From a virus: a stretch of 37,974 nt of DNA. Below, in pieces: positions 3,713 to 34,169 of this stretch (its first letter is position 1; every line of letters begins with the position of its first letter). The notes beneath the pieces were generated by a model, which was not told the DNA's origin, did no database searches, and saw only the letters and a list, made by a program, of their open reading frames with translations. The translations under genes were made by a program, and so were the position numbers. The stretch spans positions 1 to 37,974 of IMG/VR virus record IMGVR_UViG_3300030202_000102, one strand, 5' to 3'.

Positions 3713-3715
3713 TAA
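2759..3715 (+). CDS. Tail protein: second kelch-like six-repeat paralogue
   Basis: The start chosen is the ATG at 2759, which overlaps the upstream stop as TAATG; a TTG 30 bases upstream would extend it but lies inside the previous gene. The protein is 318 aa. After a unique 40-residue N-terminus (MPNYNGVWNLSTQYQYAEDP) it has six repeats with the same TTGNATDFGDLT signature as its neighbour, but no fibronectin domain. It ends AHGGLA. Tandem duplication followed by divergence is the simplest explanation of the pair. The next gene starts with another TAATG overlap at 3715. The role is inferred to be host-surface recognition. Confidence 0.7.
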   Translation: MPNYNGVWNLSTQYQYAEDPNKWGDFFYNPQALIFAGTSANTVETLNFATTGNATDFGDLTADVERATAGMASRTRAVVGTTATSSSDTSSNIIQFFTFTTAGDGVDFGDATVARQGGAGLASRTRGVMGGGSSSGFNTETNVMDYITLATTGNAIDFGDLSAVRNPCGGGASPTRGIFAAGQQENNGKSNVIEFITIASTGNVTDFGDSAENFKKGGGGSNETRMLYSAGDNNIIEFITIASTGNGTDFGDLTASREGSGCAASKTRYINAGGTSAKNIDYVEIATTGNASDFGDLAVGSGQLDYLGAASNAHGGLA

Positions 3716-5742
3716 TGTCACAAACACGATACCTTAAAAGCATGATTACACCTACAAAGGTAGAGCCTACTACTAGTGATGCACACATAGCAGGTACAGC
3801 ATCTGGTGTGTGGTCTGCCCAAGATCAATTAGAAGCTAGACGTGGTGGTGCATGGCCTGATGCTAGTGTAGCTGATCCAGATACACTTATTGAAAGTAAC
3901 TTTAATACGTTTTTATATATTGGAGATACTTCTGCTGCTGATGACAGTCAGACACTAACTACAGGAATAAACCTTGCTGATAAAGGAGGATTGCTATGGA
4001 TAGTATGTAGAAGTGCTGCTCGTGGTCATACATTGGTAGACACTGCACAAAATACAAGTTTATCTTCTGCTAGTACAGCAGTAGGGGCAACTTCTCACAG
4101 TATTACAACTACATCAACAGGTTTTACACTTGGTAATGGAGATGCTGCTTATAACAATGGCACTACTCCAGATACTTACTGCTCATGGTCATTTAAAAAA
4201 GCCCCTAAGTTTTTTGATATTCAAACTTGGGATGGCAATGGTGTAGCTGGGAGAGAAATTAGCCACAATTTAGGCTCAACTCCGGGCATGATACTCATAA
4301 AGTTGTTGAATGTAGCAACAAGAGATTGGGTTGTTTATCACCGTGGCGTAGATTCATCTTCGCCAGAAAACTATTTCCTTAATTTAAACGGAACTGGTGC
4401 AAGACAATCTGATAATGACACAGAGAAACAATTTAACAATGTTGCCCCAACGTCAACTAAATTTACACTTGGAGACAGTGATAAGGTGAACGGAAACTAC
4501 AACAATCTGGGTTGGACATATGTAGCCTACCTCTTTGCCCATGAAACAGGGTCTGACTCTATGATTCAGTGTGGTAGTTATACAGGTAATCAAAGTTCTT
4601 TACCAAATATTGATCTTGGATGGGAGCCTCAGTGGATTTTATTTAAAGATGTTACAAATTCAAAAAATTGGTCAATAGTAGATTCTATGAGGGGTATGTC
4701 TGTAGATAATGGGTCAAGCAATGGTGAGAAGTTCTTATATGCAAATGCAGATAATGCTGAACAAGCAGACACGCAAGTAGAACCTACTAGTACTGGGTTT
4801 ATAGTTCAAGCTAATGGTACAACAAATACAAATAGTGCAAACGTAATTTACGTAGCAATCAGAAGACCTAACATGGCTACCATAACGGATGCTACTAAGG
4901 TGTTCGCTGTTGATGACCGTAATGGTTCAATCCCAGAATTTACTTCAAGTTTTCCTGTAGATTTTGCTCTTATAAAAGATACTGATAATGCTAGTAGTGA
5001 TTGGGAAGTTAATACAAGACTTTTAGGGGCAACAAAATTAATTACAAATGACACAGATGCAGAAGCTAGTGACTCTGATGCTAAGTTTGATCTTATGAAC
5101 GGACATAAAGCAGCTGGAGATGCAGGTGAATACAGTTGGATGTGGAAACGTGCTAAAGGTTATTTTGATGCAGTTGCTTATACTGGCACAGGTAGTGCAA
5201 GAACAATAGCTCATGGATTAACTGTTCAACCAGAAATGATGTGGGTTAAACGCAGAAATGGAACAACAGCTTGGGCTGTGTATTATGGAGATAATACAGA
5301 TTACTTAGTATTAAATACTGATGCTGCAACTGTAGATGACGCTACTTATTGGAATGATACATCTCCTACTACAAGTGTATTTACATTAGGTACTAGTTCA
5401 GTAGTAAATGGAAATGGAGACACATGGGTAGCTTATCTTTTTGCAACCCTCGCAGGGGTAAGTAAAGTAGGAACAGCAACACATTCAGGAAGTTCTACAG
5501 ATGTAGACTGTGGGTTTTCTGCAGGTGCTAAATTTGTACTACTTAAACGTACTGATTCTACAGGTTCTTGGTATATTTGGGATAGTTCTAGGGGTATAAT
5601 TGCAGGTAATGATCCTTATATATTACTTGATGAAACACAGTCTCAAGTAACCAACACAGACTATATTGACCCACTAGCATCAGGTTTTACAATTACAGGT
5701 GACTTTACTGATGGTGATTATTTATTTTATGCTATAGCTTAG
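3715..5742 (+). CDS. Large tail fibre-like protein with repeated aromatic-rich domains
   Basis: 675 aa. Two similar modules are visible: one around residues 165-325 (KFFDIQTWDGNGVAGREISH, then MILIKLLNVATRDWVVYHRG) and one around residues 485-640 (GYFDAVAYTGTGSARTIAHG, then MMWVKRRNGTTAWAVYYGD). Each is followed by FTLG.S..VNGNGDTWVAYLF and a strand resembling FVLLKRTDSTGSWYIWDSSRG. This module is common in marine phage tail proteins, and I infer a receptor-binding or fibre role. The start overlaps the preceding stop as TAATG. The N-terminal 60 residues (MSQTRYLKSMITPTKVEPTT) may be the attachment region to the tail. No enzymatic motif is seen. Confidence 0.65.
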   Translation: MSQTRYLKSMITPTKVEPTTSDAHIAGTASGVWSAQDQLEARRGGAWPDASVADPDTLIESNFNTFLYIGDTSAADDSQTLTTGINLADKGGLLWIVCRSAARGHTLVDTAQNTSLSSASTAVGATSHSITTTSTGFTLGNGDAAYNNGTTPDTYCSWSFKKAPKFFDIQTWDGNGVAGREISHNLGSTPGMILIKLLNVATRDWVVYHRGVDSSSPENYFLNLNGTGARQSDNDTEKQFNNVAPTSTKFTLGDSDKVNGNYNNLGWTYVAYLFAHETGSDSMIQCGSYTGNQSSLPNIDLGWEPQWILFKDVTNSKNWSIVDSMRGMSVDNGSSNGEKFLYANADNAEQADTQVEPTSTGFIVQANGTTNTNSANVIYVAIRRPNMATITDATKVFAVDDRNGSIPEFTSSFPVDFALIKDTDNASSDWEVNTRLLGATKLITNDTDAEASDSDAKFDLMNGHKAAGDAGEYSWMWKRAKGYFDAVAYTGTGSARTIAHGLTVQPEMMWVKRRNGTTAWAVYYGDNTDYLVLNTDAATVDDATYWNDTSPTTSVFTLGTSSVVNGNGDTWVAYLFATLAGVSKVGTATHSGSSTDVDCGFSAGAKFVLLKRTDSTGSWYIWDSSRGIIAGNDPYILLDETQSQVTNTDYIDPLASGFTITGDFTDGDYLFYAIA

Positions 5743-7638: not shown

Positions 7639-10600
7639 ATGGCAAACAAGTTTAAAGGTTTTAACAATCAACAAACGCACCAATTACTTACTGAGCTAGG
7701 CTATACAGGCCCAGCGCAAAAGGATGACATGGATAAGTTTGTTGCGGCTACTCCGACTGTTGCATCTATGCTTGGGCGTTATAACGAGATGGCTAGACAA
7801 CGTGTAGAGGGTGGGCCTGTGGCTCCTATAGGTATGCAAGCTGGTGGAGCGCTTCCTAAAACTCCTCTTGATCTTTATTGGGAAAACTTTGCAGCACAAA
7901 AGAAACAAGCTAAAACATCTGGTCAACCTACTTTAGTTGATACTTACCTTCGAGATGATACGGCGCAAGATGATATGGCACAAATTAATTTTCCTGATGG
8001 AACTGCAGTAAGCGTTCAAAAAGGTTTTGCCGAAGCTTATTTAAATCACGCTAAAAACACAAATATACAATTAAATACTGTAGCAGATTATAACGCACTG
8101 TCTCAAAAAATATCTGCAGGTACAGAAAATCCTAATAGTACAGAAGCTCAAATACACAATCAAGGTAACAATCGTACTTTACAATATAGAAACACTAAAC
8201 AAGGTAAATCACGAGATGACTTTATTCAGGAATCTTCACAATATAATGTTCAAGGTAAATCAACCTCTGTCCCCCAAGTTACAGGTGAGGTAGCTTTAGC
8301 TGGTGGAAATACAGGGGTAGCTTTACCAGAGGGTTTACCAAAGTTTATTCAAGAAAAAGCCACACCTGATACAACAGTTTCACAGGCTATTGCAGACAAA
8401 GATACAGCGCAAAAAGCTGTAGAACAATCAGAGAGAATACAATTAGAAAAAGAGGCTAGGGCAAAAGCGACAACTGATACTACTGTTGCTGATACTACTG
8501 TTGCAGAAAAAGACACAGCAGCAGCAGATATTCCTATAGAGCAATTACCACCAACTATAATAGGCCAGAGCGAACTAGATGCTGCACAAAAGGCTTACGC
8601 TGATGCACAGAAAACATTAACTGATGCACAGACAGCGTTAAACAATGCAACAGAACCGGAAGCTAATCCATTTACTGATCCTACTGCTTTAGAAAATATA
8701 ACAGCGACTTATTTAAGCTCTGACGCAAATGTTAAATATAACATAGATTTTGATACGTATCACAGAGATGGTGTAGGTAAATCAGGTGTAATGAGTGCTG
8801 ATGTTAAAGCGATACTTGAGAGTGGTAAGATGCCATCTGACCCAACTAAGTATGATGAAGCAGAACTTAATAAAGGGTCATCAGATAATTGGACATTTAA
8901 GTTTGATAATGGGCAAACTGTAGTTATACGCCGTGATAATAAAGAAGATGCGATAGCTTCTTTTAACAACCTAGCTAAGATGCTTACTGACTTTAAAGAG
9001 TCTGACTTATTTAAGAACAACAGATCTCCAGAACAGATAGCTTACGAACAGCTTATGCAGAATGTTACTGATGCTGAAGAGTTAATAACAACAACTGAAG
9101 CTGAAGTAGCGGCAGCACAAAAGCGTTTTGAGACTACAGAGATACCTAGCACAGCAGAGGCATTAGGTAAAGCTATAACTGACCCTACAGGATTAACAAC
9201 TAAGGCTGACGTATCAAAGATTACTGAAGAAACAGATCAACTTATAGGTACAGAAAAAGGTCAGATAGGTGAAGTAAGTGAAACTGCAGTTAAGCTAGCT
9301 ACAGCTAAGATAGCTAAAGATATAGAGGCTGACAGTGTTAATACATATAATGCTATCATGTCTCAAAGCGAAGTTACAGCAGCACTAGAGAAACTAGCTG
9401 CAGCCACAGGTACACCATCAGAGGGTGCTTTATCTAAAGCTGAAACTATGACACCGGAGGAGCTTGCACAGCTTAACCTTGACCCAGCTACACAGGAATT
9501 TCTTAGGGATATACCAATAATAAAAAGGAATTTAGACAACCGTGAATTACCCACTTCTGAATTATTTAACTCATATACAAGGTCAATTGCCCAACAATTT
9601 GAGGGAGAAGTTGATGAGATTGATGGTGCTAAGTTTGCTTCTGATACACCTCAAGCAAGAGCACAAGTAAACTACAACCTTACGCCTACTGAGATAGCTA
9701 CTGCTGAAGCAACTAAGATACAACAGGCCGCTACATTTGCGGAGTACGCTACAGCAGAAGAAAAGAAATCAGAGTTTATACCTGCAATAACAGCAGAGAC
9801 AGGCACAGTAACAGCAGATGAGCTAGTTGATCTTAACAAAATACTAAACAACGAAGCCGTAGTTGTTACAGGTAGAACCTTAGAAGCACTAAACGAAGCA
9901 TCCACAGCTAAAGCAGCCAGTGCAACATTCTCACAGCAACTTGAGGCTACAGCAGTTAAAGGTGAGGTTAGCGCTCAGTCTACAATATCTTTTCAGCTAG
10001 GCAAGCTTATGGAGTCCTTCAACGATGGTACACCTGCATGGGCTGCAGGGGCTTTACGTAATGTAAATGCAGCCATGAATGCTCGTGGTTTAGGCGCTAG
10101 TTCTATGGCTGCTGCAGCTATGGTACAGGCTTCTATGGAGGTGGCACTACCTATAGCACAAGCTGATGCGTCTATCTTTCAAGCTATGGATATGGAGAAC
10201 GTGCGTAATGCTCAAGCTGTAGCTTTAGCTAATGCTGCTGCAGCACAAAACTTTGAGTTAGCTAACTTGTCAAATAGACAAGCTGTAAACATACAGAACT
10301 CTATGAACAATGCCAACCTGTCTTTGAGAAACTTGTCTAATACACAAGAGGCTGTGCTTGCTTCTGCACAGTTTAAAGCTGCACTACAAGGTCAAGAGTT
10401 GAGTATTAGCTCTAATGTCTCACTAGCTAATGCTGCACGTTTTGCACAAGTAAACGACATAAACCTCAGTAACGCACAGCAGACATCTATACTTAGGTCT
10501 ACACAAGCCTTAGAAGTTGACTTAACTAACCTATCAAATGTACAGCAAACTGCCTTGTCAAACTTACAAGTCAAAGCTGCTATGATGGGACAAGAGCTTA

Positions 10601-11799
10601 CTAATGAGCAGCAAGTAGCTGTATTAGAAACGACACAGGCGTTTGATATTGAAATGCAGAACGCTACACGTAAGCAACAAGCGTTTATACAAGATGCTGC
10701 ATCTAGGGCTGCAATGGAAGGTAGAGTGCTTGACAATAGACAGCAGACATCTCTATTCAATGTAGGCAACGAAGTAGCAGAGCGTGGCATAGAGTTAAAC
10801 AATGAGCAACAGGCCACTATGTTTAACATGACTAACAAGATGACTATAGATGTTGAGAACTTGTCCAATCGTCAGCAGAGTGCTCTAGCTACCGCACAAA
10901 TAGAAGCAGCCATGAAAGGTCAAGAGCTTACTAACAGACAGCAAGTAAACATTGTACGAACAGAGAGAATAGCTGAAATAGCTAATATGCAGTTCACAGC
11001 AGATCAACAGACTGCAATAAGAAACTCTGAGTTAGCTCAAACTGTTGACTTAGCTAATTTAAACAACACTCAAGCTAAAATACTAGCTGATGCTGCGGCT
11101 ATGTCTCAGGTAGATGTAACTAACTTAAACAACAGACAACAAGCTGCACAACAAAAAGCAGCAGCATTCTTGTCATTTGATTTAGAAGGGCTGTCTAATG
11201 AGCAGCAGATAGAAATATTCAAAGGACAGAGTGAAATACAAAGTATACTTAGTGATCAAGCTGCAGAGAACGGACAGCTACAGTTCAATGCTCAGAGCAC
11301 TAATCAGGTTGAACAGTTCTTTGCTAACTTAGATGCGCAGGTTGATATGTTTAGCACCGCACAAGAGAACGCTATAGAGCAGTTTAACGTAGGTGAAGAG
11401 AATGTTTTATCTAAGTTTGACTCAGAACTCAGCAGTCAGCGTGACATGTTTAATGCATCTAATGAACTGGTTGTAGCGCAAGCTAATACTCAGTGGAGAC
11501 AGAATATAGCCACCATAAATAATGCTGCTAGCAATGAAGCAAACATGCGTGACGCTATGGCTGCTAACAACTTGACCACACAAGGTATAGCAGAGCTTTG
11601 GCAACAGGAGCGTGACTTAATGAACTACGCTTGGACAACTGCAGAAAAGCAAGCTGACAGAGATCACCAGTTAGTTACAAATAAAATACAAGCTGACTCT
11701 GCAGAGGATAGTGGCTTTTCAATGGCAGCAGGGAAGTTCTTGTCGGCTACCATAGGTGCTATAGCTGAAACTGGTGGCATAAGTAAGTTTTTTAGTTAA
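7639..11799 (+). CDS. Giant virion protein with sixteen 22-residue repeats (candidate ejection / internal protein)
   Basis: 1386 aa. Residues 1-850 are polar and Ala/Thr/Glu/Lys-rich with long helical stretches (for example LDAAQKAYADAQKTLTDAQT). Residues 854-1205 are sixteen gap-free 22-residue repeats with consensus (N/E)L(S/T)NRQQ followed by an Ala/Gln-rich segment. The period continues in degraded form for about four more units (FANLDAQV, NVGEENVL). The C-terminus ends in a hydrophobic segment (KFLSATIGAIAETGGI). In podoviruses such very large helical proteins near the end of the structural block are typically inner-core DNA-ejection proteins (T7 gp14-16 analogues); assigning that role here is inference. 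No enzymatic motif is seen. It is followed 11 bases later by the 785-aa gene. Confidence 0.65.
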   Translation: MANKFKGFNNQQTHQLLTELGYTGPAQKDDMDKFVAATPTVASMLGRYNEMARQRVEGGPVAPIGMQAGGALPKTPLDLYWENFAAQKKQAKTSGQPTLVDTYLRDDTAQDDMAQINFPDGTAVSVQKGFAEAYLNHAKNTNIQLNTVADYNALSQKISAGTENPNSTEAQIHNQGNNRTLQYRNTKQGKSRDDFIQESSQYNVQGKSTSVPQVTGEVALAGGNTGVALPEGLPKFIQEKATPDTTVSQAIADKDTAQKAVEQSERIQLEKEARAKATTDTTVADTTVAEKDTAAADIPIEQLPPTIIGQSELDAAQKAYADAQKTLTDAQTALNNATEPEANPFTDPTALENITATYLSSDANVKYNIDFDTYHRDGVGKSGVMSADVKAILESGKMPSDPTKYDEAELNKGSSDNWTFKFDNGQTVVIRRDNKEDAIASFNNLAKMLTDFKESDLFKNNRSPEQIAYEQLMQNVTDAEELITTTEAEVAAAQKRFETTEIPSTAEALGKAITDPTGLTTKADVSKITEETDQLIGTEKGQIGEVSETAVKLATAKIAKDIEADSVNTYNAIMSQSEVTAALEKLAAATGTPSEGALSKAETMTPEELAQLNLDPATQEFLRDIPIIKRNLDNRELPTSELFNSYTRSIAQQFEGEVDEIDGAKFASDTPQARAQVNYNLTPTEIATAEATKIQQAATFAEYATAEEKKSEFIPAITAETGTVTADELVDLNKILNNEAVVVTGRTLEALNEASTAKAASATFSQQLEATAVKGEVSAQSTISFQLGKLMESFNDGTPAWAAGALRNVNAAMNARGLGASSMAAAAMVQASMEVALPIAQADASIFQAMDMENVRNAQAVALANAAAAQNFELANLSNRQAVNIQNSMNNANLSLRNLSNTQEAVLASAQFKAALQGQELSISSNVSLANAARFAQVNDINLSNAQQTSILRSTQALEVDLTNLSNVQQTALSNLQVKAAMMGQELTNEQQVAVLETTQAFDIEMQNATRKQQAFIQDAASRAAMEGRVLDNRQQTSLFNVGNEVAERGIELNNEQQATMFNMTNKMTIDVENLSNRQQSALATAQIEAAMKGQELTNRQQVNIVRTERIAEIANMQFTADQQTAIRNSELAQTVDLANLNNTQAKILADAAAMSQVDVTNLNNRQQAAQQKAAAFLSFDLEGLSNEQQIEIFKGQSEIQSILSDQAAENGQLQFNAQSTNQVEQFFANLDAQVDMFSTAQENAIEQFNVGEENVLSKFDSELSSQRDMFNASNELVVAQANTQWRQNIATINNAASNEANMRDAMAANNLTTQGIAELWQQERDLMNYAWTTAEKQADRDHQLVTNKIQADSAEDSGFSMAAGKFLSATIGAIAETGGISKFFS
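10198..11253 (+). repeat. Sixteen tandem 66-bp / 22-residue coding repeats
   Basis: The units begin at residues 854, 876, 898 and so on in exact steps of 22 up to 1184, with no insertion or deletion. The anchor is N-L-S-N-R-Q-Q; variants include ELTNEQQ, VLDNRQQ, NLNNRQQ and QFTADQQ. DNA identity between units is low, so the period is held by selection on the protein. 22 residues equals two hendecads, which fits a continuous helical rod. Confidence 0.85.
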
Positions 11800-11810: not shown

Positions 11811-14168
11811 ATGAGTTTAGAAAATCTATTTAACAGTTTGCAGAACTTACTCAGTGGTGGTAAAGATCAACCGCAAGAAGAAGAAAAGCAAACAGAGGGT
11901 TTAATGTCTACTAGCCTTAGACCTAGAGCTAGACCTGCTGGGCTAAAGCCTATTGAAACTGAACAGAATGAAAACAATGAATACTTAGCTAATACTATAA
12001 ATAATATTAACAGCCCAGAGTTTAACGAGGAGGACACTACAGTTAAGACTAGTCTTAGACCTAAAGCTAGACCTGCTGGTGTACCTTTAAATAGTGTGGA
12101 TGCACAAGATGTATTATCTGATCCTAGTACTTTGTACTCGGTGTACAACACTCGCATGGCAAAAGCAGATTCTAATTTTTCTGTTAAAATGCAAAAGTTT
12201 AAATCTGCAGAGTTAGATTCTTTATTAAAATATGCAGAAGAAAAAGAAGGAAAGGCTAGTGCGGCTATGGCATTTGCACGAGAAGCATTAAATGTGTCAC
12301 TACGTCCTAAAGCGAGGCCATATCAGGTAGGGGAAGCTAAAGAACCAGACTATACTTTTACAGAAAAAGATAGAATAAAAGAAATACAACAAGATTTAAA
12401 CGCTGCAGGTATTACTGTAAATGGTAAAAAACTCGTAGTGGATGGTATTAAAGGAGACAATACTAAAAAAGCAATAAGGGCTTTTCAAAAAAGGGAGGGC
12501 TTAAAGGTTGACGGTAAAGTTGGAGATAATACTAAAGCAGCTTTTCGTAGGGTTATCCCTCAATCTGCAGTAGAAGTTGGTGAAATACCTGACCAACAAG
12601 GTCTTATGAAAAGATTGCCTATGGCTGCAGAAGCTTATGAAGTAGGTGATATACCTATGATCATAGGAGAAACTGATCAAAGTACAAAAGAAGGTCGTAA
12701 AAGAATACAAGAAGCTTTAAATGAGTTAGGCTATGACGTTGGTAAAGTTGATGGTATTTTCGGCTCTAAAACTAAAAAACAAATACAAAAGTTTAAAAAG
12801 GATAATGACTTATTAGATTCCTTAACTATAGATAAAGATACAGTAAATGCATTAAATGACGCTCGTGGAGTTACGATGGGAGGAGATACTGAAACCCCTA
12901 GTGCTGTTAGTAGTGGTATATTTAATTTTAAAATGCCTCAAAGTAAACTTTTAAATTTAGCAACGGGTACTCCTGCAAAGCTACTAATAAAAAATATATT
13001 AGGTTTAGATAGAAATTACTTAATGAAAAATATTCCTATACCCATAACCGAAGCAGCATTTAAAGAAGACGAACTTCAACACTTTAGAAATATGTGGACT
13101 AAGTATGGTACAGGAAAAGTAACAAAAGCACAACAAATAGACAGTGCAAATGCTGTTATGAATGTCATAACAGGAAAAGATAGAGCACCCTTTGACTTAC
13201 CTGCTGATGTAAGAGCATATTATTCAGTTGGAGACTTTACACTAACACAAAACGAAGATGGTGAGGTAATATTAAAAGATCAATATGATTATAATATATA
13301 CACAGACTATACTGCAGAGCCTACTACAAATAAAGATGGTGAGCAAGAATACCCTAGATTAACTACAGAAGAATTTGAGGATAAATACTCTACGGCTAGG
13401 GGTATAAAAGATACATTAAAAGCATATACTGACGGTAAGATAGGCTTCATGTCTGCTGCACATAATTTAGGGTTCTTATTAGGTAGTAGAGATTACAAAG
13501 ATGCTAGTAAAGATGAAGGTACACCCATACGTATAAATCTTGGTAAGCCTGAAACTTGGGATACTGATAATGCTGATGCGGCAACAGCAGGATTAATGTC
13601 TCCTACTACGCAGCCTAAAGCTATACCAGAAGGGCAGGAACTTAAAGTAAACAATCTAACTATAGTAAACGCCACAAGAGGTGATGGTAAAGCTTACCGT
13701 GGAACTAAAAATATGTTTAATATATCACTTGATTATAACTCCCATACAAGTTATGCCAGTGGTACTGAAGTTATAATTCCCGATAACGCTGATGAGGCAA
13801 CACGAAAAGCAGCAGATAAATTTAATAAAGCTATGGTAGCCTTTGCAAAAAAACATGGTATCAAAGGCTATAAAAACAGAGGCATTTTTACCACAACGCA
13901 GAACGCAGCGCGTAAAGGTGGCGAAAGAGGTGGTGCGGATAATACTATTCATGCAGAGCCTTTCTTCATTCAAGATAAAAAAATGGTAGCTGCTGTAAAA
14001 AATAATTTTAAAGAGTTCTCTCAAATTTACGTAGATACATTTGGTAGTTTACCTGCTAGGATTGTTGCGCCTCATGGGGTAGAAGGAGATGTTGGTAAGG
14101 TTTCTGAGGAATTTGGTAGTGAATTAGAATTTGGTAAGAGTGTTATAGCAACACTAATGAGAAGTTAA
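11811..14168 (+). CDS. Virion-associated peptidoglycan-binding protein, probable murein-active
   Basis: 785 aa. Three copies of a short basic motif SLRP(R/K)ARP occur at residues 35-42, 81-88 and 163-170. Two PG_binding_1-type domains follow at about 187-245 (IKEIQQDLNAAGI, DGIKGDNTKKAIRAFQKREG) and about 295-348 (RIQEALNELGYDVGKVDGIF, GSKTKKQIQKFKKDN). The C-terminal 200 residues include a conserved-looking stretch, GADNTIHAEPFF, which could contribute metal or catalytic ligands; I could not assign it to a named hydrolase family. The expected role is cell-wall binding and perhaps local digestion during DNA entry. The 1386-aa protein is upstream, a three-span membrane protein follows three bases later, and a lysozyme-like protein lies further on. 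Confidence 0.65.
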   Translation: MSLENLFNSLQNLLSGGKDQPQEEEKQTEGLMSTSLRPRARPAGLKPIETEQNENNEYLANTINNINSPEFNEEDTTVKTSLRPKARPAGVPLNSVDAQDVLSDPSTLYSVYNTRMAKADSNFSVKMQKFKSAELDSLLKYAEEKEGKASAAMAFAREALNVSLRPKARPYQVGEAKEPDYTFTEKDRIKEIQQDLNAAGITVNGKKLVVDGIKGDNTKKAIRAFQKREGLKVDGKVGDNTKAAFRRVIPQSAVEVGEIPDQQGLMKRLPMAAEAYEVGDIPMIIGETDQSTKEGRKRIQEALNELGYDVGKVDGIFGSKTKKQIQKFKKDNDLLDSLTIDKDTVNALNDARGVTMGGDTETPSAVSSGIFNFKMPQSKLLNLATGTPAKLLIKNILGLDRNYLMKNIPIPITEAAFKEDELQHFRNMWTKYGTGKVTKAQQIDSANAVMNVITGKDRAPFDLPADVRAYYSVGDFTLTQNEDGEVILKDQYDYNIYTDYTAEPTTNKDGEQEYPRLTTEEFEDKYSTARGIKDTLKAYTDGKIGFMSAAHNLGFLLGSRDYKDASKDEGTPIRINLGKPETWDTDNADAATAGLMSPTTQPKAIPEGQELKVNNLTIVNATRGDGKAYRGTKNMFNISLDYNSHTSYASGTEVIIPDNADEATRKAADKFNKAMVAFAKKHGIKGYKNRGIFTTTQNAARKGGERGGADNTIHAEPFFIQDKKMVAAVKNNFKEFSQIYVDTFGSLPARIVAPHGVEGDVGKVSEEFGSELEFGKSVIATLMRS

Positions 14169-14171
14169 TTA

Positions 14172-14615
14172 ATGTTTGGCTTACCCTTAGAACTAATCAC
14201 CATGCTCTTCTCTACCATACTTGGTGGCGTTATGTCTATATGGGGGCAAAGCATAAAAGGTAGGCAAGCCCAAAATGAAATGCTTATGCAACGTGTTAAC
14301 TTTGAAGCCAAGCAAGTCAACAGGGCTAGAGATGCAGGTAAGAACGACAAACACTTTGCTTGGACACGTAGACTTATAGCTTTATCTGCAGTATTTAGCA
14401 TTATTGTCTTGCCAAAGCTAGTCGCAGTGTGGTATCCTGATATCAGTGTATATGTAGGATACACAGAGGTACAGGGCGGCTTTATGAACTGGTTGTTTGG
14501 CCCTGATGAAGCTATCCAATGGAAGATGGCAAAAGGATTTGTAATCACCCCTCTAGATACACATATTGTATCAGCCATAGTAGGTTTATACTTTGGCGCT
14601 GGGTTTACTAAGTAG
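14172..14615 (+). CDS. Three-span membrane protein, holin-like candidate
   Basis: 147 aa with hydrophobic segments at about residues 5-25 (LELITMLFSTILGGVMSIWG), 68-88 (LIALSAVFSIIVLPKLVAVW) and 128-145 (IVSAIVGLYFGAGF). These are separated by a charged helix (NEMLMQRVNFEAKQVNRARD). A first span, a basic cytoplasmic helix and then two spans is reminiscent of the three-TM holins of gene-transfer agents, which is the basis for the tentative call. It could instead be a virion membrane protein, given that both neighbours look structural. Confidence 0.5.
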   Translation: MFGLPLELITMLFSTILGGVMSIWGQSIKGRQAQNEMLMQRVNFEAKQVNRARDAGKNDKHFAWTRRLIALSAVFSIIVLPKLVAVWYPDISVYVGYTEVQGGFMNWLFGPDEAIQWKMAKGFVITPLDTHIVSAIVGLYFGAGFTK

Positions 14616-14625
14616 GAAAAATAAG

Positions 14626-15270
14626 ATGGCAGTAACACAGTTTGGAGCACCCATACCGGGCAACTCATTGCTCACACACTCACCCGGTGAAAGACCGTGG
14701 GAGCGTCCATCAGAGTTAAACACGGTAGAAGAAGCGACACGTTTCTATATAACTAGGTTAGCTAAAGAGGAGATTATAGATGATCTGATGGCTTCTTTAG
14801 TATCAGGCATAGCTATCAATCCTATAGCAGAGGCACTAACTCTGTCACAAGTTATGCGAGGCAGACATAGCCTTGATGTAGCAATACTAGTAAAGCCTGT
14901 AATCATGGAGTTCTTAGCTGCTGTAGCTGACAACAATGATATAGATTACAAGTTTACAAACAAAGACCCTCAAGCTCAGATAGATCAAAAAGAAAGAGAT
15001 CGTATGCAGCTAGTCTTGATAGGCGAGCTAAGTAAAGCTCAAGAAGAGGGTACTGAAGATGCTGGCACAGAGCTACTAGGTGAGATATCAGATTTTCTGT
15101 CACAGGATGTAGGCCGTGAAGGGGCTGCTGATGCTACACAAGAGATGCCACCACCTGAAGTTGTAGAGATAGACAAGGTAATGGACTCACCTGAAGAGGG
15201 TGCAGAACCAGAAGAATTACAAGAACAAGAACAGGCTCCACAAGAGATGGGCCTAATGGCTAGAGGGTAA
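14626..15270 (+). CDS. Hypothetical phage protein, 214 aa, acidic C-terminus
   Basis: The start is the ATG at 14626, preceded by AGGAAAAATAAG; a TTG 33 bases upstream lies within the preceding gene and lacks a ribosome-binding site. The N-terminus (FGAPIPGNSLLTHSPGERPW) is of a type I associate with structural blocks of marine phages. The centre is helical, and the last 60 residues are strongly acidic (EEGAEPEELQEQEQ). A virion-assembly or scaffolding-like role is possible from composition and position. No catalytic motif is visible. Confidence 0.6.
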   Translation: MAVTQFGAPIPGNSLLTHSPGERPWERPSELNTVEEATRFYITRLAKEEIIDDLMASLVSGIAINPIAEALTLSQVMRGRHSLDVAILVKPVIMEFLAAVADNNDIDYKFTNKDPQAQIDQKERDRMQLVLIGELSKAQEEGTEDAGTELLGEISDFLSQDVGREGAADATQEMPPPEVVEIDKVMDSPEEGAEPEELQEQEQAPQEMGLMARG

Positions 15271-15276
15271 AGTATT

Positions 15277-16905
15277 ATGGCGTTTAATTATAAAGCATTT
15301 GCTGCAGGATTTATGGAGGATCAAGCACGTCAGATTAATACAAGAGTTGCAGAAGCACGAGAGTATAAAAGAGAGTTAAAAGAAAATGCTGAAGCATCTA
15401 AGAGTAAGATAAGTAAACTTGCACAGCTAGGTAACTTAGCTAAGTCTGAAATAGCTAGGTTAAGAGCGTATGGTGTAGATGATAGGTACATTAATGCAGG
15501 TATAGCCTCTGGACCAAAAGGTTTGTTTGATTTATCCACTGCTGTTCAAGAAGAAGCAGCGAGGCGTAACTTTAAACCCGGACAAAAGTTTGATGAGTTT
15601 GAAGTAGAAGCCTTAATAGATATGGATAAAGACTTTAAGTATGGGGAAGTTGATGCTATGGAGTTCTACGAAATGAACACGGCGCTAACTAAGCCCTCTT
15701 TGGGTAGCACTAAAGATAAAAAACGTGGTGTGTTTGGTTCATTACTTGGCTTAGACTTAGACGATGCAGTAAGAGCTAGGCTTGATGAAGATGCATACTT
15801 TGATGGCTATTCTGTTATGGATATAAATGAGATATCTAAACAGGAAGCATACGAAAGTGTCGCGCCGGGTACATACTTCTCGTTTGCTCCTACCAAAGCT
15901 GTTGATGTAAGAACTGCATTAAATCAATTACAAATAGAGATAGGTAGGATAGACGATAATATTAGTGAGAGGGCAAAGGCCCTTGAGTTTATTAATGAAG
16001 CAGAAGAAATATTAGCAGATGAGAATAGGGCAAAAAACTATGTTGTAAAGGGCAAGTTAATGACCCCAGAGCAGATATCTCTAGCTCTACAACAGCAAGA
16101 GAGAAGAAGTAAGACTATTACGATTGTTGAAGCTTTAGCATCAGATAATCCTTTGTACGTAGAGAAGATGGAGCCTATATTGAAGAGTGTAGGGGGGCTA
16201 GGTGATAATCAGATAGAAGCATTAAAGTTTAATGCTATGGCTGATCAAGAACTGGAGAGAACTATTGCAAATAAACTATTAGAAAGTGCTCCTAAAGAGA
16301 GTAGAGATGTAGGACAACGCATAAAGTTTACTGCAAAGAATAATAAAGGTGGCATAGATGACTATGAAGCGGTAGTAAGTAAAGGAGATGTTATATCTAT
16401 TAAAATGAACGGTATTGTGACACCTGACAACTTAATATTAGGAAAGCTCCAGCAGATTGTTTCACAAGGAGGTTTGTCTAGCATTAAAGGCGCAGTGGTT
16501 GCATCTCCGTTTCCTTCTAATAGAACACCTGATGATGTACCGCCAGATGTTAGTAATGTAGCATTAGAGGAGGAAGAAGAAGATGAAGACGTTCTTGTAG
16601 ACACTAAAGAAGATGAAGATGAGGAATACACTTTAAAAAGAGAGGGTAGACCTATAGATAAAATAAAATCATTTTTTGAAGGTCGTGGAGATAGGCGTAA
16701 AGAAGTAATGCGTAAGGTCGAGGAAAGAAGAGAACAAGAAGAGAGAGAGGGTACACCTGAAGAAGAAAAGGTAGAGTATGACAAAGACAATCCATATATT
16801 TTTGAGGAGGGTTTATCCAACGAAGAAGCTCAAGCTATTTTCGATAGTCTTCCTGCTGGGACTGTTTTTAGGAATCCAGCAAACGGACAGATCCGGGTTA
16901 AATAA
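15277..16905 (+). CDS. Hypothetical virion protein, 542 aa
   Basis: Starts 6 bases after the previous stop with MAFNYKAFAAGFMEDQARQI. The N-terminal 60 residues are helical and charged. An extreme acidic run lies near residues 429-450 (EEEEEDEDVLVDTKEDEDEE), followed by a basic Arg/Glu-rich segment. The end (GLSNEEAQAIFDSLPAGTVF, then RNPANGQIRVK) resembles short C-terminal modules seen at the ends of other phage proteins. There is no enzymatic signature. Its place in the run of large structural genes suggests a virion or internal protein. Confidence 0.6.
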   Translation: MAFNYKAFAAGFMEDQARQINTRVAEAREYKRELKENAEASKSKISKLAQLGNLAKSEIARLRAYGVDDRYINAGIASGPKGLFDLSTAVQEEAARRNFKPGQKFDEFEVEALIDMDKDFKYGEVDAMEFYEMNTALTKPSLGSTKDKKRGVFGSLLGLDLDDAVRARLDEDAYFDGYSVMDINEISKQEAYESVAPGTYFSFAPTKAVDVRTALNQLQIEIGRIDDNISERAKALEFINEAEEILADENRAKNYVVKGKLMTPEQISLALQQQERRSKTITIVEALASDNPLYVEKMEPILKSVGGLGDNQIEALKFNAMADQELERTIANKLLESAPKESRDVGQRIKFTAKNNKGGIDDYEAVVSKGDVISIKMNGIVTPDNLILGKLQQIVSQGGLSSIKGAVVASPFPSNRTPDDVPPDVSNVALEEEEEDEDVLVDTKEDEDEEYTLKREGRPIDKIKSFFEGRGDRRKEVMRKVEERREQEEREGTPEEEKVEYDKDNPYIFEEGLSNEEAQAIFDSLPAGTVFRNPANGQIRVK

Positions 16906-17725: not shown

Positions 17726-20700
17726 ATGACCTTAGAAGAATTTGATAAGTTATATGGGAAGAAGGGAAAAGTAGAACCTAGTACTTCTGTAGCTATGTCT
17801 ACGGCTGACACTGAGTTCAACGATATGTTTGAATCTGACACTCGTAAAGGAGAGAAGTTAAAGAAGGATGACCTGTACAGAAGAGACAGGTTAAACAAGA
17901 TACGTGAATACATGATTAGCAAGAAGGGCGCTGACTACATGGATGCCGACAAAGAAACTGTAGTCGAAGACTTTGTTGACAGTATGCGTAGGTTTAACAC
18001 TAACATAGTTGCTACTGCAGGAGAGGCTAGATTTATTAGTAAAGCAGACGATAAAACTAAGAATGTAGCTAAAGAAGCATATGAGTTGTACGATAGTTTA
18101 GGTAACGTGTTTGTCAATGATGGTTTGTTTGGTGCAGTGGACGGTGTAAAAGATTATATATTATCTATAGCAAGTGACCCTACAAACTATATAGGTCTAG
18201 CTACAGGCGGCTTGGGTAAAGCAAGTGCGCTGGGCGTAGGTGAGGCTAGTAAGAAAGCTATACAAGCCTCTGTAGCTGCTGCAGCTAGGAGAGCGTCTGC
18301 TAGTGGAGCTACTAAAGAGGCAGCTAAAAAGGCAGGAGAAGAGGCTGCAGATGCCATGACTGCTAAGTTAGCAGGTAGTAGCTACACTAAGGCATCTATG
18401 AAGAGAGCATCTAACGCTGCAGCAAAGAAAGCTAGAGCTAAAGTTAGGCTACAGGCCGCACAAAGAGCTATAAGAGAAGAGACAGGAGAGCTAAAAGGTA
18501 AGGCTGCTAAAAAGGCTGTCATACAAACTACAGCAATTGATGCTCTTTTGTCTGGTGTACAGGATGTAGCCACACAAGATATATACCATGACATAGGAGC
18601 ACAGGACAAGTTTAGTGCTGCACAAACTGCCATGTCGTTAGCGTTGGGTGGTATAGGGGGTGGGTTGCATTACACATTCGGTAAGTTTGATGGTATGTCT
18701 GGTTTGTCTGAGGCTATGGATAATGCAAAGGCTGCAAGCAGAGCAGAGGAGTTTCCACTAAAAAGATTTAAAGCAGAGAAAGAAGCATTACGTAAACTTA
18801 AAAAAGCTAAAGCACCAAAGGCACAAATAAAAAAGCAACAGACCCTAGTAAACAAATTAGCTAGAGAGGCAGTAGCTGCACCTATTTTAAAGCAAAAATC
18901 AATTAAACAAGCTGCAGATCAAATGAAGAAAGATATACGAGATTGGAACACAAAAGTACAAACTGGTAAAGCAACCTTTGAAGGTTCAGACGGTAATCAA
19001 ATAATGCCAGAAAGTTTGTTAAGTAAAATTATGTTAGGCTACACACCTGATGGCAAAGAGGCTTTAGGTATAAAAGGACCAGTAGAAGTAGGTGGGTTAG
19101 CCAAGATATTTAAAGACAACGGTATTAAATTTTCTAAGACTACAAAAGTATCAGATATCATGACAAACTTATTGCACTACATGGACCCTGATGATTTAAA
19201 AGATATATCACAGTTATTTAGAAAACACACTAACATAGAACTAGGCACGTTGCACAGCTTACCTGTGGAACTAGGAGATGTTATAGCTGCTACAGTTAGT
19301 GGTGCAGGTAGTACACTGAGTGTTATGGCTAGTGTTCGTAGGGCTGTAGATGGAGGTGTTGTATCTGGCAATGAGTTATTAGTTGAAACTATAAACTCTA
19401 AAGAGGTACAGGATAAGTTAGCAGAAGAGTTTGGTAAGAAAAGAAAAAAAGCACAGTACGGAGCGTATATGCAAAACATATGGAAGCGTCTTTTAGTTTC
19501 ATCTCCAGCTACAACTGCAGCTAACGTAGCTGGCTTTGCACAGTTTTATGGTGGGCAAGGTGTAGCTGATCTCTTTAGCACTGGTATGTTAGGTGTAGCT
19601 GGTGTAGCATCTGCAACTAAAGGTGACAAGAATCTTAGTAAAGAATTGTTTAGACAGGCTCGTGTGTATAAAGATTTACAAGCACAAAAGATGAAAAACT
19701 TTCTTGATCCTATGTCTACGTATGAAAGTTTTATGGACTTGATGACAACAATAGATAACAACAAGCAGGTAAAAGGTTTGTTATTTGAAACTATAGGTGG
19801 GGGCATAGAAAGAACAGCCAAAAGATATAACATGGATATAGATAGTCCATTACTAGAGAAGACTGAAATATTTGCTGATGCCGCCATGATGATAACAGGA
19901 GTACGTGTGCAGGATGTATTTACTAAGTCACAAATGTTTATGACTGAGCTAGATAAATATATTAGATTAAAGCACGGTAAGGACAACCCAAATATAACTT
20001 TAGCTAGTGTGTTAGAGTCAGGTGATATGGCTAAGATAGATGATGATGTAATAGGTGGTGCAGTAGATACTACGTTACGATCAGTGTTCTCTAAAGACTA
20101 CACCACGGATGATCAGATGCTAGGTTTTGCAGCTAAGTTTGTAGAGCAAGCATCTAACACACCTTTGCTTGGTACTGTTATACCCTTTGGTAGATTTATG
20201 AATAATGTTGTGGCTACTGCATATCAATGGGGGCCAGCTAGCTTGTTACCTGCAGCATCAAGGATATATAAGGCAAGTGGCAAAGACATAAAAGCTAATG
20301 AAGCTATGGCACGTTCTATGGTAGGAACTACTGCGCTAGTAATGGCAATGCAAATGGATGATGAGAGACAGAAAAAAGGTTTGGCTGTTAATGAAATAGA
20401 AATGAGTGGGACTATCGTAGATGTAAGAAATGTGTTTCCGTTTTCTTTGTTCTTAGCAATAGGTAGAGCCGCTAACTTACGTAGAAAAGGAGAGTCCGTA
20501 CCACCAGAGCTACGAGAAGAAGTATTAAATCAGTTAGCCATAGGGCAGGTAGCTAGAGATGCACAGTTTGGTAATGATCTATTTAATGTGTTTGATTATT
20601 TTACTGGTGACGGTAGCGACAGAGGTAAAACATTAGATGCTTTGTATAAGTCTTTAGGCAATATAGCTGCAGGTGCTACACGTCCACTTGATGCAGTAAA

Positions 20701-21373
20701 CAGGTCTGTAGGGTATCTTGCTGGTAACGATATAGCTAAAGATGTGAGACAGGCAGAGGGAGTAAATAAGTTTACGCAGTCTGCATCTAAATACTTTGAC
20801 AATATATTAGAAGTTTTGATAGGAGAGTCTGAGGCACTGACAGGCGAGAACTTGCGTGTAGCTACAAGGGAAGGTGATATTTATGACGCTAACCCACTAG
20901 CTCGTATACTAGGTTTGAATATTAAGAGAGGCAAGACTGCTACAGAAAAAGCCTATACTCTATCAGAACTACAAACATGGAAAGCAGATCAAAGATCACA
21001 AATACCTATGTACGATAGAATATTTAATGAGACATTAGCCCCTGTATTAGAAAGAAGAATGACACGATTGCTAAAGAGTAAAAACTTTAGAGAGGGCGAT
21101 TTAGCACACAAGAGAGGTAGGGTAAAAGAAGAATTAAAGAGAGCTAGAAAACACGTAAGAGATAATTTTAAAATAGCTACAAGTGAAGGTTTTTTAGAAC
21201 AAAAAAGATATGATGCATCTAATAAGGGAACAAAAGAACAACAAAAGAAAGCCTTACGTATGATGAAAGAAAGAGGCGTAGATGCAGAGCTAAAAGATTT
21301 TAACTATAGAGAGTTGCAGACATATGAATCTATTATAAATCATCTTAACCTCAAAATCAAAACTGGCTTGTGA
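17726..21373 (+). CDS. Large internal virion / DNA-ejection protein candidate, 1215 aa
   Basis: The ATG directly follows the preceding TAA. The N-terminus is charged. At about residues 135-165 there is DGLFGAVDGVKDYILSIASD followed by PTNYIGLATGGLGKA, a motif typical of phage internal virion proteins. Residues of about 170-270 are Ala/Lys-rich and strongly helical (AAARRASASGATKEAAKKAG). Hydrophobic helices occur later (FAQFYGGQGVADLFSTGMLG; STTALVMAMQ-like region near 870). Size, helicity and membrane-active stretches fit a protein that forms part of the trans-envelope conduit in podoviruses. This is family-level inference; no enzyme motif is seen. It is the last large gene of the rightward block. 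Confidence 0.65.
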   Translation: MTLEEFDKLYGKKGKVEPSTSVAMSTADTEFNDMFESDTRKGEKLKKDDLYRRDRLNKIREYMISKKGADYMDADKETVVEDFVDSMRRFNTNIVATAGEARFISKADDKTKNVAKEAYELYDSLGNVFVNDGLFGAVDGVKDYILSIASDPTNYIGLATGGLGKASALGVGEASKKAIQASVAAAARRASASGATKEAAKKAGEEAADAMTAKLAGSSYTKASMKRASNAAAKKARAKVRLQAAQRAIREETGELKGKAAKKAVIQTTAIDALLSGVQDVATQDIYHDIGAQDKFSAAQTAMSLALGGIGGGLHYTFGKFDGMSGLSEAMDNAKAASRAEEFPLKRFKAEKEALRKLKKAKAPKAQIKKQQTLVNKLAREAVAAPILKQKSIKQAADQMKKDIRDWNTKVQTGKATFEGSDGNQIMPESLLSKIMLGYTPDGKEALGIKGPVEVGGLAKIFKDNGIKFSKTTKVSDIMTNLLHYMDPDDLKDISQLFRKHTNIELGTLHSLPVELGDVIAATVSGAGSTLSVMASVRRAVDGGVVSGNELLVETINSKEVQDKLAEEFGKKRKKAQYGAYMQNIWKRLLVSSPATTAANVAGFAQFYGGQGVADLFSTGMLGVAGVASATKGDKNLSKELFRQARVYKDLQAQKMKNFLDPMSTYESFMDLMTTIDNNKQVKGLLFETIGGGIERTAKRYNMDIDSPLLEKTEIFADAAMMITGVRVQDVFTKSQMFMTELDKYIRLKHGKDNPNITLASVLESGDMAKIDDDVIGGAVDTTLRSVFSKDYTTDDQMLGFAAKFVEQASNTPLLGTVIPFGRFMNNVVATAYQWGPASLLPAASRIYKASGKDIKANEAMARSMVGTTALVMAMQMDDERQKKGLAVNEIEMSGTIVDVRNVFPFSLFLAIGRAANLRRKGESVPPELREEVLNQLAIGQVARDAQFGNDLFNVFDYFTGDGSDRGKTLDALYKSLGNIAAGATRPLDAVNRSVGYLAGNDIAKDVRQAEGVNKFTQSASKYFDNILEVLIGESEALTGENLRVATREGDIYDANPLARILGLNIKRGKTATEKAYTLSELQTWKADQRSQIPMYDRIFNETLAPVLERRMTRLLKSKNFREGDLAHKRGRVKEELKRARKHVRDNFKIATSEGFLEQKRYDASNKGTKEQQKKALRMMKERGVDAELKDFNYRELQTYESIINHLNLKIKTGL

Positions 21374-32703: not shown

Positions 32704-33544
32704 TGGGTTGCTCTTGTTTGTTGTGCCTCTTTGCCTCATCAATCCACCTCCCCAAGAAGTTTATATCTTCATCATCTTGATACTTAATATCATCACGTAA
32801 CCTGATAGCTCTGGTAGGTATGTCACACCAAGCCTCTATCTCTTTGCGCATAACTAAAGTCTTACGCATAGCATCAGGATCAAGTCCAACGATAACATAC
32901 TTAGCATCGTCACTCAAGCACTCTTTGTGTGCATCAGTTAAGTTAGTGCCTAGTAGTGCGAAACCTGTTACACCGGGCCATACTTTAGCCACAGTGATAG
33001 CACTAATAACATCCTCCACTAATATGAATACACCATTAGCTGTACCGTAGGAATACCTAGCGTACTCAGCAGCCTTACCATAGCGCAGCCATTTAGGTTT
33101 AGCGCCATCTAGCTCACGGCCTATTGCATCTACGAGCACACCGTTGTGATAGATAGGAAACACTGCACGTTTATCTTTAATGTCGTACAGTAACTCTACA
33201 CCTCGTAATGTTTCTGCATATATACCCTGCCATCTCATACGAAATCTGTTTATGTATCTGTTGTTTACAGGGTTAGCTATATGTTCTGGATAAACGAAAG
33301 GTTCTGCCCTCTTGTTAACATTTCCAGTTTCTATAAGAGGCTTAACAAAGTAGCTACTCATCTCTTCTGCTGTCATGCCATAGCTAACTTTACCTTTGGC
33401 ATCACAAGATAGTTTGTAGCAGTTGTAGATTATCTTACCGTCACGCTTGGTAGCAGTAAAAGTATTCTTACCGCCACATCTAGGGCAGTCGCTCCTGATG
33501 TTAGCACCTTCAGCTATGTCTAGTTTGTCCATATCAATAAGCAT
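32654..33544 (-). CDS. DNA primase (T7 gp4 primase-like, zinc finger plus TOPRIM)
   Basis: 296 aa. It synthesises RNA primers for lagging-strand replication. The zinc-binding part has C20/C23 (CPRCGGKNTF) and C42/C47 (NCYKLSC). The TOPRIM core has E177 (FILVEDVISAITVAK) and D222/D224 (VGLDPDAM). There is no helicase domain, so priming and unwinding are on separate proteins, unlike T7 gp4; the helicase lies at 29273. The start overlaps the HNH gene stop by 11 bases. It is flanked by two HNH-type nuclease genes, a common target neighbourhood of mobile endonucleases. Confidence 0.88.
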   Translation of the reverse strand: MLIDMDKLDIAEGANIRSDCPRCGGKNTFTATKRDGKIIYNCYKLSCDAKGKVSYGMTAEEMSSYFVKPLIETGNVNKRAEPFVYPEHIANPVNNRYINRFRMRWQGIYAETLRGVELLYDIKDKRAVFPIYHNGVLVDAIGRELDGAKPKWLRYGKAAEYARYSYGTANGVFILVEDVISAITVAKVWPGVTGFALLGTNLTDAHKECLSDDAKYVIVGLDPDAMRKTLVMRKEIEAWCDIPTRAIRLRDDIKYQDDEDINFLGRWIDEAKRHNKQEQPNGEGFTTTQVQTTGDT

Positions 33545-34169
33545 CTTTTATATCCTTTAGCATCTCTCGTACTGTTGCTTTAATATTTTTATTTAACTTT
33601 GCACTTTTTCTTTGGTTTTCTGTAGCAGTAATTATTTGTAAGTTCCCACTCCAATGTGGGCCTTTCTTGCTAAGAGGCCACATATGATCGACGTGATGCT
33701 GCACACCTGTTGCTTTAGTAAACATGTCACTCAGTTTATATATTTGGTTTACACGATTCTTTTCTATAGGACAATCACGCACTTTTATAGGTATCTGTTT
33801 TCGTTTTGCTGCTCTGCGTTTAGCATTACGTGCGAAAAACTTCTCTTTGTTATCTTGATAGTAAGCAACTACCCTCTCTTTGTTAGCCTTTACCCAAGCA
33901 TTCTTGTTAGCTAGTATCCTCTCTTTGTTAGCCTCTCTGTAGGCTAGTAACTTCTCTTTGTTAGCCTCTCTGTAGGCTTTCTGTCTAACAGCTATCTTCT
34001 CTTTGTTAGCCTGATAGTAAGCAGCACTCTTAACCTTCTTTTTAACAGCTATCTTATCTTTGTTAGCTTGATAGTAAGCTTTCTGTGTAACAGCTATCTT
34101 ATCTTTGTTAGCTTGATAGTAAGCCTTTTTGTAAGCTCTATCATGCTCCTTATAATTGCGTGTCATCAC
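33534..34169 (-). CDS. HNH endonuclease with N-terminal YYQANKEK repeats
   Basis: 211 aa. The N-terminal half (about 17-113) holds seven units of A-Y-(Y/R)-(Q/E)-A-N-K-(D/E)-(K/R)-(I/L) spaced 11, 15 or 19 residues, forming a long basic helix likely to bind DNA. The C-terminal HNH reads HHVDHMWPLSKKGPHWSGNL, then QIITATENQRKSAK, with the His-Asp-His cluster and the later Asn residues. Such free-standing HNH proteins are usually mobile (homing-like) nucleases. It sits between integrase and primase in the same operon and overlaps both by a few bases. Target site unknown. Confidence 0.85.
   Translation of the reverse strand: MMTRNYKEHDRAYKKAYYQANKDKIAVTQKAYYQANKDKIAVKKKVKSAAYYQANKEKIAVRQKAYREANKEKLLAYREANKERILANKNAWVKANKERVVAYYQDNKEKFFARNAKRRAAKRKQIPIKVRDCPIEKNRVNQIYKLSDMFTKATGVQHHVDHMWPLSKKGPHWSGNLQIITATENQRKSAKLNKNIKATVREMLKDIKDAY
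33831..34124 (-). repeat. Tandem coding repeats of the HNH protein's helical arm
   Basis: Seven repeat units of 33, 45 or 57 bp. The two most upstream share 37 identical bases (34043-34079 and 34088-34124, offset 45 bp), so at least one duplication is recent; the others are diverged. Confidence 0.8.

Follow-up and report, generated by a model that had tools for sequence, protein, structure and literature searches.

A hendecad-repeat protein of HMO-2011-type phages, a candidate part of a DNA-delivery conduit, varies in length mostly by 110-residue steps

The window analysed here is a 37,974-nt stretch of viral DNA (IMG/VR virus record IMGVR_UViG_3300030202_000102, positions 1 to 37,974), and the subject of this study is one of its genes, which encodes a 1386-amino acid (aa) protein with a long array of 22-residue repeats. 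The gene and its neighbours are listed in Table 1. Homology and the same place before a cassette of large proteins put the protein in a family of HMO-2011-type phages (phage1322_25 of HMO-2011). Searches of the protein against Pfam, PHROGs and PDB, with sequence and profiles, gave no family match.

As the original prediction had claimed, and on firmer grounds than it gave, the 22-residue period was uninterrupted, with 16 consecutive 22-mers and no insertion or deletion across residues 854-1205 of the open reading frame (ORF). The mean BLOSUM62 score of the array against itself was 0.84 at a lag of 22 residues, 1.06 at lag 66 and about 0.75 at lags 44 and 88, while 1000 shuffled arrays scored at most 0.03 at any lag from 2 to 59, and a profile of the unit had zero matches in shuffled homologues. 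The low DNA identity between units was likewise confirmed, with averages of 41% for DNA and 26% for protein, so the repeat array is old; Tandem Repeats Finder listed no array at 10198-11253. Equivalent units were 75% identical across phages, and different units 27%. Each unit consists of a hendecad pair, xxNLSNRQQxx plus LxNAQxxxxxD, and there was no phase change into the single hendecads that follow, with Asn at the third position common to all three hendecad types (68%, 67% and 79%). Asn made up 14% and Gln 16% of the array. The earlier reading of 22 residues as two 11-residue hendecads held, since the array merges into single hendecads and its length always changes by multiples of 11. The four or so faint extra units expected behind the array were not decayed 22-mers, although the repeats do continue there, as seven single 11-mers in register. 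The conserved anchor (10018-10203), which is Gly/Ala-rich, lies on the N-terminal side of the array.

Homologues were found by tblastn in 27 phage records with E values down to 1e-72, including HMO-2011, CRP roseophages, HTVC pelagiphages, Vibrio CHOED, Aeromonas MQM1 and 1233, Pseudoalteromonas Slicky01, phiM6, phages of Rhizobium and Sinorhizobium and an uncultured podovirus. Scans of IMG/VR added at least about 220 further loci, which brought the homologue set to 244. To follow the register through this set, we measured the distance between the two flanks of the array with profile hidden Markov models, from RGLGxSS before the array to the hendecads after it. The results showed a distance of 9 modulo 11 in all 233 homologues with both flanks (20 modulo 22 in 228/233), and the same 9 modulo 11 was kept in 37/37 non-redundant proteins, whose flanks were <70% identical to one another. 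A regular-expression version of the test gave 156/156. In the same non-redundant proteins, the lengths of the N-terminal and C-terminal tails were scattered over all residues modulo 11. An uninterrupted 11-residue register is expected of a hendecad (11/3) coiled coil, and the fixed register in 233/233 homologues bore out the strong structural constraint that had been proposed from the exact period.

Some relatives have features of their own. Many six-unit forms carry an extra C-terminal domain with the motif FCWVAREVYG, which is missing from the 1386-aa protein; in the HMO-2011 homologue (L027/L050) it spans residues ~640-705 and was modelled by AlphaFold2 with a predicted local distance difference test score (pLDDT) of 85-93. 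One homologue (MW202701; L029, 4101-6692) is mislabelled 'huntingtin' in GenBank, probably on account of its Gln-rich repeats. In a scan of bacterial genomes a relative 70% identical was found on a single contig (L246, PANU01000010.1) of a Flavobacteriaceae metagenome-assembled genome, most likely a phage contig binned with its host.

The number of units differed among relatives in a regular way. Classes of 6, 11, 16, 21, 26 and 31 units were found in 98, 40, 35, 4, 3 and 3 loci, respectively, counts which describe the collected loci and not population frequencies, and neighbouring classes are separated by an exact step of 110 residues (five units, 330 bp). The 16-unit array in the window thus equals the six-unit form plus two such steps. 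Off the series were classes of 10 units (34 loci, the pelagiphage group), 14 and 15 units; distant relatives, for the most part, had shorter arrays of 2.5-5.5 units, in which half units sometimes occurred. Among cultured phages, HMO-2011 has 6 units, HTVC103P 10 and CRP-738 about 3. The closest relatives, down to ~54% full-length identity, all had 16 units, so repeat counts do not vary randomly among close relatives, in line with the structural reading put forward earlier.

In long arrays, protein identity peaked at every fifth unit (0.60, 0.49 and 0.34 in arrays of 31, 26 and 21 units), and DNA identity at a lag of 330 bp reached a mean of 0.65 and a best window of 0.86 (L159), compared with ~0.4 at other unit lags. 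These results indicated that arrays grow through duplication of five-unit blocks. On a tree built from the flanks of the repeat gene alone, at least 22 class changes were needed, and strongly supported branches forced at least 5 changes for the 16-unit class and at least 3 each for the 11- and 26-unit classes, indicating that the same step was taken in several independent events. The five unit types have diverged from one another, so a step of 110 aa would follow simply from recombination between like blocks. It is therefore probable that the step size by itself has no structural meaning and only reflects the pairing of blocks 330 bp apart. This explanation, which is compatible with any other account of the protein, agrees with the excess of DNA identity at lag 330 and with the occurrence of the 10-, 14- and 15-unit classes, but it leaves unexplained the strict 11/22 register and the persistence of 16 units in diverged relatives. 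Unlike the step size, the strict 11-residue register needs selection.

We then considered whether the array could form one continuous helix. Proline was found at 0 of 40,062 array residues and 0 of 15,554 hendecad residues across the family, as compared with 4,848 of 81,968 (5.9%) in the N-terminal part, and in 1,821 units it was absent from each of the 22 positions, predicted turns included. It is the lack of proline at predicted turns that carries the argument, since a few other ORFs contain long stretches free of proline as well. Near relatives, very long proline-free stretches were noted in the ORFs L062 1090-3456 (647 residues) and L022 4134-8378 (593 residues). An odd step of five units flips the parity of unit number, which an antiparallel zigzag of helices should not tolerate. 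Zero proline, the 11-residue register and the odd unit step together favour a continuous 11/3 helix. On a wheel of 98.2 degrees the second harmonic of hydropathy exceeded the first, giving two faces, a pattern that suits a helix packed between two others, whether in a barrel or in a solenoid, better than it suits a simple coiled-coil dimer. The AlphaFold2 model of the HMO-2011 protein had one 154-residue helix through the hendecads (residues 455-608), and its array, modelled at low confidence, had longer helices across unit borders.

Table 1 Features of the repeat gene and its neighbours in the window
Feature	Position	Strand	Description	Basis
Repeat-rod protein gene	7639..11799	+	1386 aa; central and C-terminal part all-alpha	ORF call, translation, homologues in 244 loci
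N-terminal region, aa 1-793	7639..10017	+	Length varies among relatives; has proline	Anchor position modulo 11 scattered
Conserved anchor, aa 794-855, GTPAWAAGAxR...ARGLGxSSMA...PIAQxDA	10018..10203	+	Most conserved non-repeat segment	Alignment
Sixteen 22-aa double-hendecad units, residues 854-1205	10198..11253	+	Consensus NLSNRQQVALFNAQxRLEMDMQ	
Units 11-16	10858..11253	+	Match whole six-unit array of HMO-2011-type relatives	Unit lists and 11-mer print-outs compared by eye
Seven single hendecads, aa 1215-1291, QFNAxSxNQxx	11281..11511	+	Phe marker in most; QFNAQSTNQVE to QANTQWRQNIA	
C-terminal Gly/Ala-rich hydrophobic segment	11710..11796	+		17-aa hydropathy >1.0 in 110/194 homologues vs 65/194 shuffled
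675-aa ORF	3715-5742		DUF7483; C-terminal part resembles PHROGs of tail fibres and virion structural proteins	
785-aa protein with peptidoglycan-binding domains	11811..14168	+	PHROG endolysin; adjoins rod gene	
225-aa PIPGxSLT protein	14593..15270	+	Opens a set of three conserved downstream genes; similar to T7 gp14 in size and position	Alignment
542-aa protein	15277..16905	+	Second gene of this set; similar to T7 gp15 in position	Synteny
1215-aa protein	17726..21373	+	Third gene of this set; similar to T7 gp16 in position and size	Synteny

The repeat gene follows fibre-like genes and precedes conserved proteins of ~180, 330-680 and 1100-1880 aa, a size order that matches T7 gp14-15-16 (PMC8954989). 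None of the three proteins encoded downstream in the window had a PDB match; the 225-aa and 1215-aa proteins also had no consistent PHROG match, and the latter no Pfam match. The place of the endolysin-like gene is taken in relatives by other genes of varied size and looks like an exchange site. A membrane-spanning segment in the repeat protein was rejected, as 19-aa hydropathy exceeded 1.6 in just 9/244 homologues and the C-terminal Gly/Ala-rich segment stood weakly above shuffles; a contact of this segment with membrane is at most possible. Elsewhere in the window, a minus-strand ORF of 211 aa (33534-34169) contains tandem repeats at the DNA level, with periods of 33 and 45 bp (33870-34132, 92-94% matching), which are 11- and 15-aa repeats of recent origin.

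Taken together, we tentatively regard the 1386-aa protein as an HMO-2011-type phage structural protein that has one very long hendecad helix as its C-terminal half and would be part of a DNA-delivery conduit, a reading to which we give slightly less than an even chance. Only synteny suggests that the protein is in the virion; a role in DNA delivery, our best guess though again short of even, is suggested by synteny and by two phage proteins of the same repeat design. In this phage the 16 double and about eight single hendecads would form one long alpha-helix, and several copies might lie side by side through the two hydrophobic seams of each helix, making an Asn/Gln-rich tube or bundle. The protein would probably be packaged in the virion and leave it along with the large products of the three downstream genes, and could then serve in the conduit through which DNA crosses the cell envelope, in much the way of phiX174 protein H. 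Recombination between 330-bp blocks would lengthen or shorten the array, and selection would remove changes that break the 11-residue register. A bolder version, which we think unlikely, is that short-tailed marine phages have a length-graded, phiX174-H-like hendecad conduit that evolves in 110-residue (~16.5-nm) modules, with a length perhaps tuned to the thickness of the host envelope, as an extra ejection component without counterpart among the known ejection proteins of T7 and P22.

Several results weigh against the conduit reading. The literature searched held no proteomics placing the repeat protein in the virion, and the profiles of the repeat protein and the three downstream families matched no T7 chain and no known family. 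The size of the predicted helix is a further difficulty. At 0.15 nm per residue, with array and hendecads counted together, a straight helix would measure 33, 50, 66, 82, 99 and 115 nm in the classes of 6, 11, 16, 21, 26 and 31 units, respectively. The periplasm is about 20-30 nm thick. The capsid of MQM1, the sole capsid size found for any relative, measures 70.6 nm and its tail 9.2 nm (PMC10410586). The longest classes (99-115 nm) cannot lie straight in a 70.6-nm head or span the periplasm once. With such excess length, the protein would have to be folded in the virion and straightened afterwards, or be a solenoid, or not be internal at all. The proposal of a molecular ruler of a core is doubtful for the same reason of capsid size and because genome length showed no link: array length did not correlate with it (Spearman -0.17, n=36, classes of 185 and above), which makes a head-size ruler unlikely.

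The structure models raise the other difficulty for the long helix. The AlphaFold2 monomer of the fragment of the 1386-aa protein (30 sequences) split the array into one short helix of ~16 residues per 22-aa unit, with breaks at NLSN, at a pLDDT mostly of 70-82 and a predicted template modelling score (pTM) of 0.37. Ser, Thr, Asp or Asn at position 3 with Gln at position 6 is a helix-cap pattern, Gly reaches 17% at position 21, and there is more Asn than a plain helix would usually contain. All but the last of these points speak for an alpha-solenoid, in which each unit comprises a short helix and, at G-Q-E-L-T-N / D-M-x-N-L-S-N, a turn, the units are stacked in a superhelix, and five units may form one turn of it, which would explain the 110-aa step. 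Its dimensions would fit the capsid or periplasm, and the best PDB fold matches, though insignificant, were designed helical repeats. However, a solenoid would fit poorly with the lack of proline at turns, an odd number of single-helix units would reverse its polarity at each step, its register is shared with plain hendecads, and the longer helices in the low-confidence HMO-2011 model cross unit borders. We consider the solenoid rather unlikely, and both monomer models could be misleading, as a stave of a tube could misfold when modelled in isolation. The straight rod of about 50 nm in the original prediction is therefore favoured by the proline and step data and opposed by the AlphaFold2 monomer, and its length becomes ~66 nm if the single hendecads join the same helix.

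Two further explanations appear improbable. The protein might be tape-measure-like, descended from or convergent on an 11-aa-repeat tape measure and kept for envelope passage or head-tail assembly. Siphophage tape-measure proteins have 11-aa repeats with units gained and lost (PMC3271669), growth by block duplication resembles theirs, and weak fold matches to tape measures point the same way; five Phe/Trp in register were found in 143/244 family members versus 1/852 control ORFs, but the seven-in-register Phe/Trp pattern of that study was found in 0/244. Foldseek searches of the fragment and HMO-2011 models gave no PDB match at E<0.001, and among viral models only their own relatives reached this level. 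No significant sequence match was found either, the gene order is unlike a tail-tube operon, and there is no long tail to measure. To a similarly small degree we credit an external fibre, needle or head-associated coiled-coil rod instead of an ejected internal protein. Long coiled coils are frequent in fibres, the genes upstream encode tail fibres or structural proteins, and the length problem in envelope and capsid would vanish; but the gene directly precedes the conserved large-protein cassette, the two-face hydropathy is unlike the single stripe of a dimeric or trimeric coiled coil, and the 1386-aa protein has no fibre-type C-terminal domain. A beta-solenoid, suggested by the Asn/Leu spacing, the 22-residue repeat and hydropathy periods of 2.2 and 2.75, was rejected as both models were all-helical and 2.2 is the second harmonic of 3.67, and a leucine-rich repeat was rejected for lack of strands.

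HMO-2011-type phages are reported to rank with the most abundant virus groups of the ocean (PMC9038755), and their repeat protein has no match in Pfam, PHROGs or PDB. Nature has provided a series of deletions and insertions in this family, with six main lengths and one step size in otherwise similar genomes of ~55 kb, which makes it directly testable whether repeat number sets the length of an ejection conduit.

Among known systems, alpha-solenoid proteins (HEAT, TPR and designed helical repeats) share helical repeats with one AlphaFold2 helix per unit, but a single helix per 22 aa, odd steps and no proline would be atypical of them, and fold matches were insignificant. T7 is likewise a podovirus needing a conduit through the envelope, and the genes next to the repeat gene run in the size order and orientation of its gp14, gp15 and gp16; the repeat gene itself is extra, without evident counterpart there, and neither its product nor those of its neighbours have detectable sequence similarity to solved T7 proteins. 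With 11-aa-repeat tape measures the protein shares the 11-aa period, aromatic markers (here in the C-terminal hendecads) and gain or loss of whole units, and in TP901-1 deleting a non-integral number of tape-measure repeats abolished visible plaques (PMC5099701). The phages here are short-tailed, the main array is marked by Asn/Gln and not Trp, additional periods of 22 and 110 aa are present, and no homology was found. The phiX174 protein H contains hendecads and forms a decameric tube for DNA passage, with Asn, Gln and Arg residues lining its lumen (PMC7354561). Both are minor phage proteins with Gln/Asn/Arg-rich 11-residue helical repeats, and by composition a tube with an Asn/Gln/Arg-lined lumen would fit the design of H. 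H has three hendecads followed by heptads, is 17 nm long and serves single-stranded DNA, whereas the protein here has ~40 hendecads with no heptads recognised, in a double-stranded DNA podovirus; PDB sequence and profile searches gave no significant match to H, and there was no Pfam match. The repeat family links the phiX174 pilot tube and tape-measure repeats by a shared 11-residue design.

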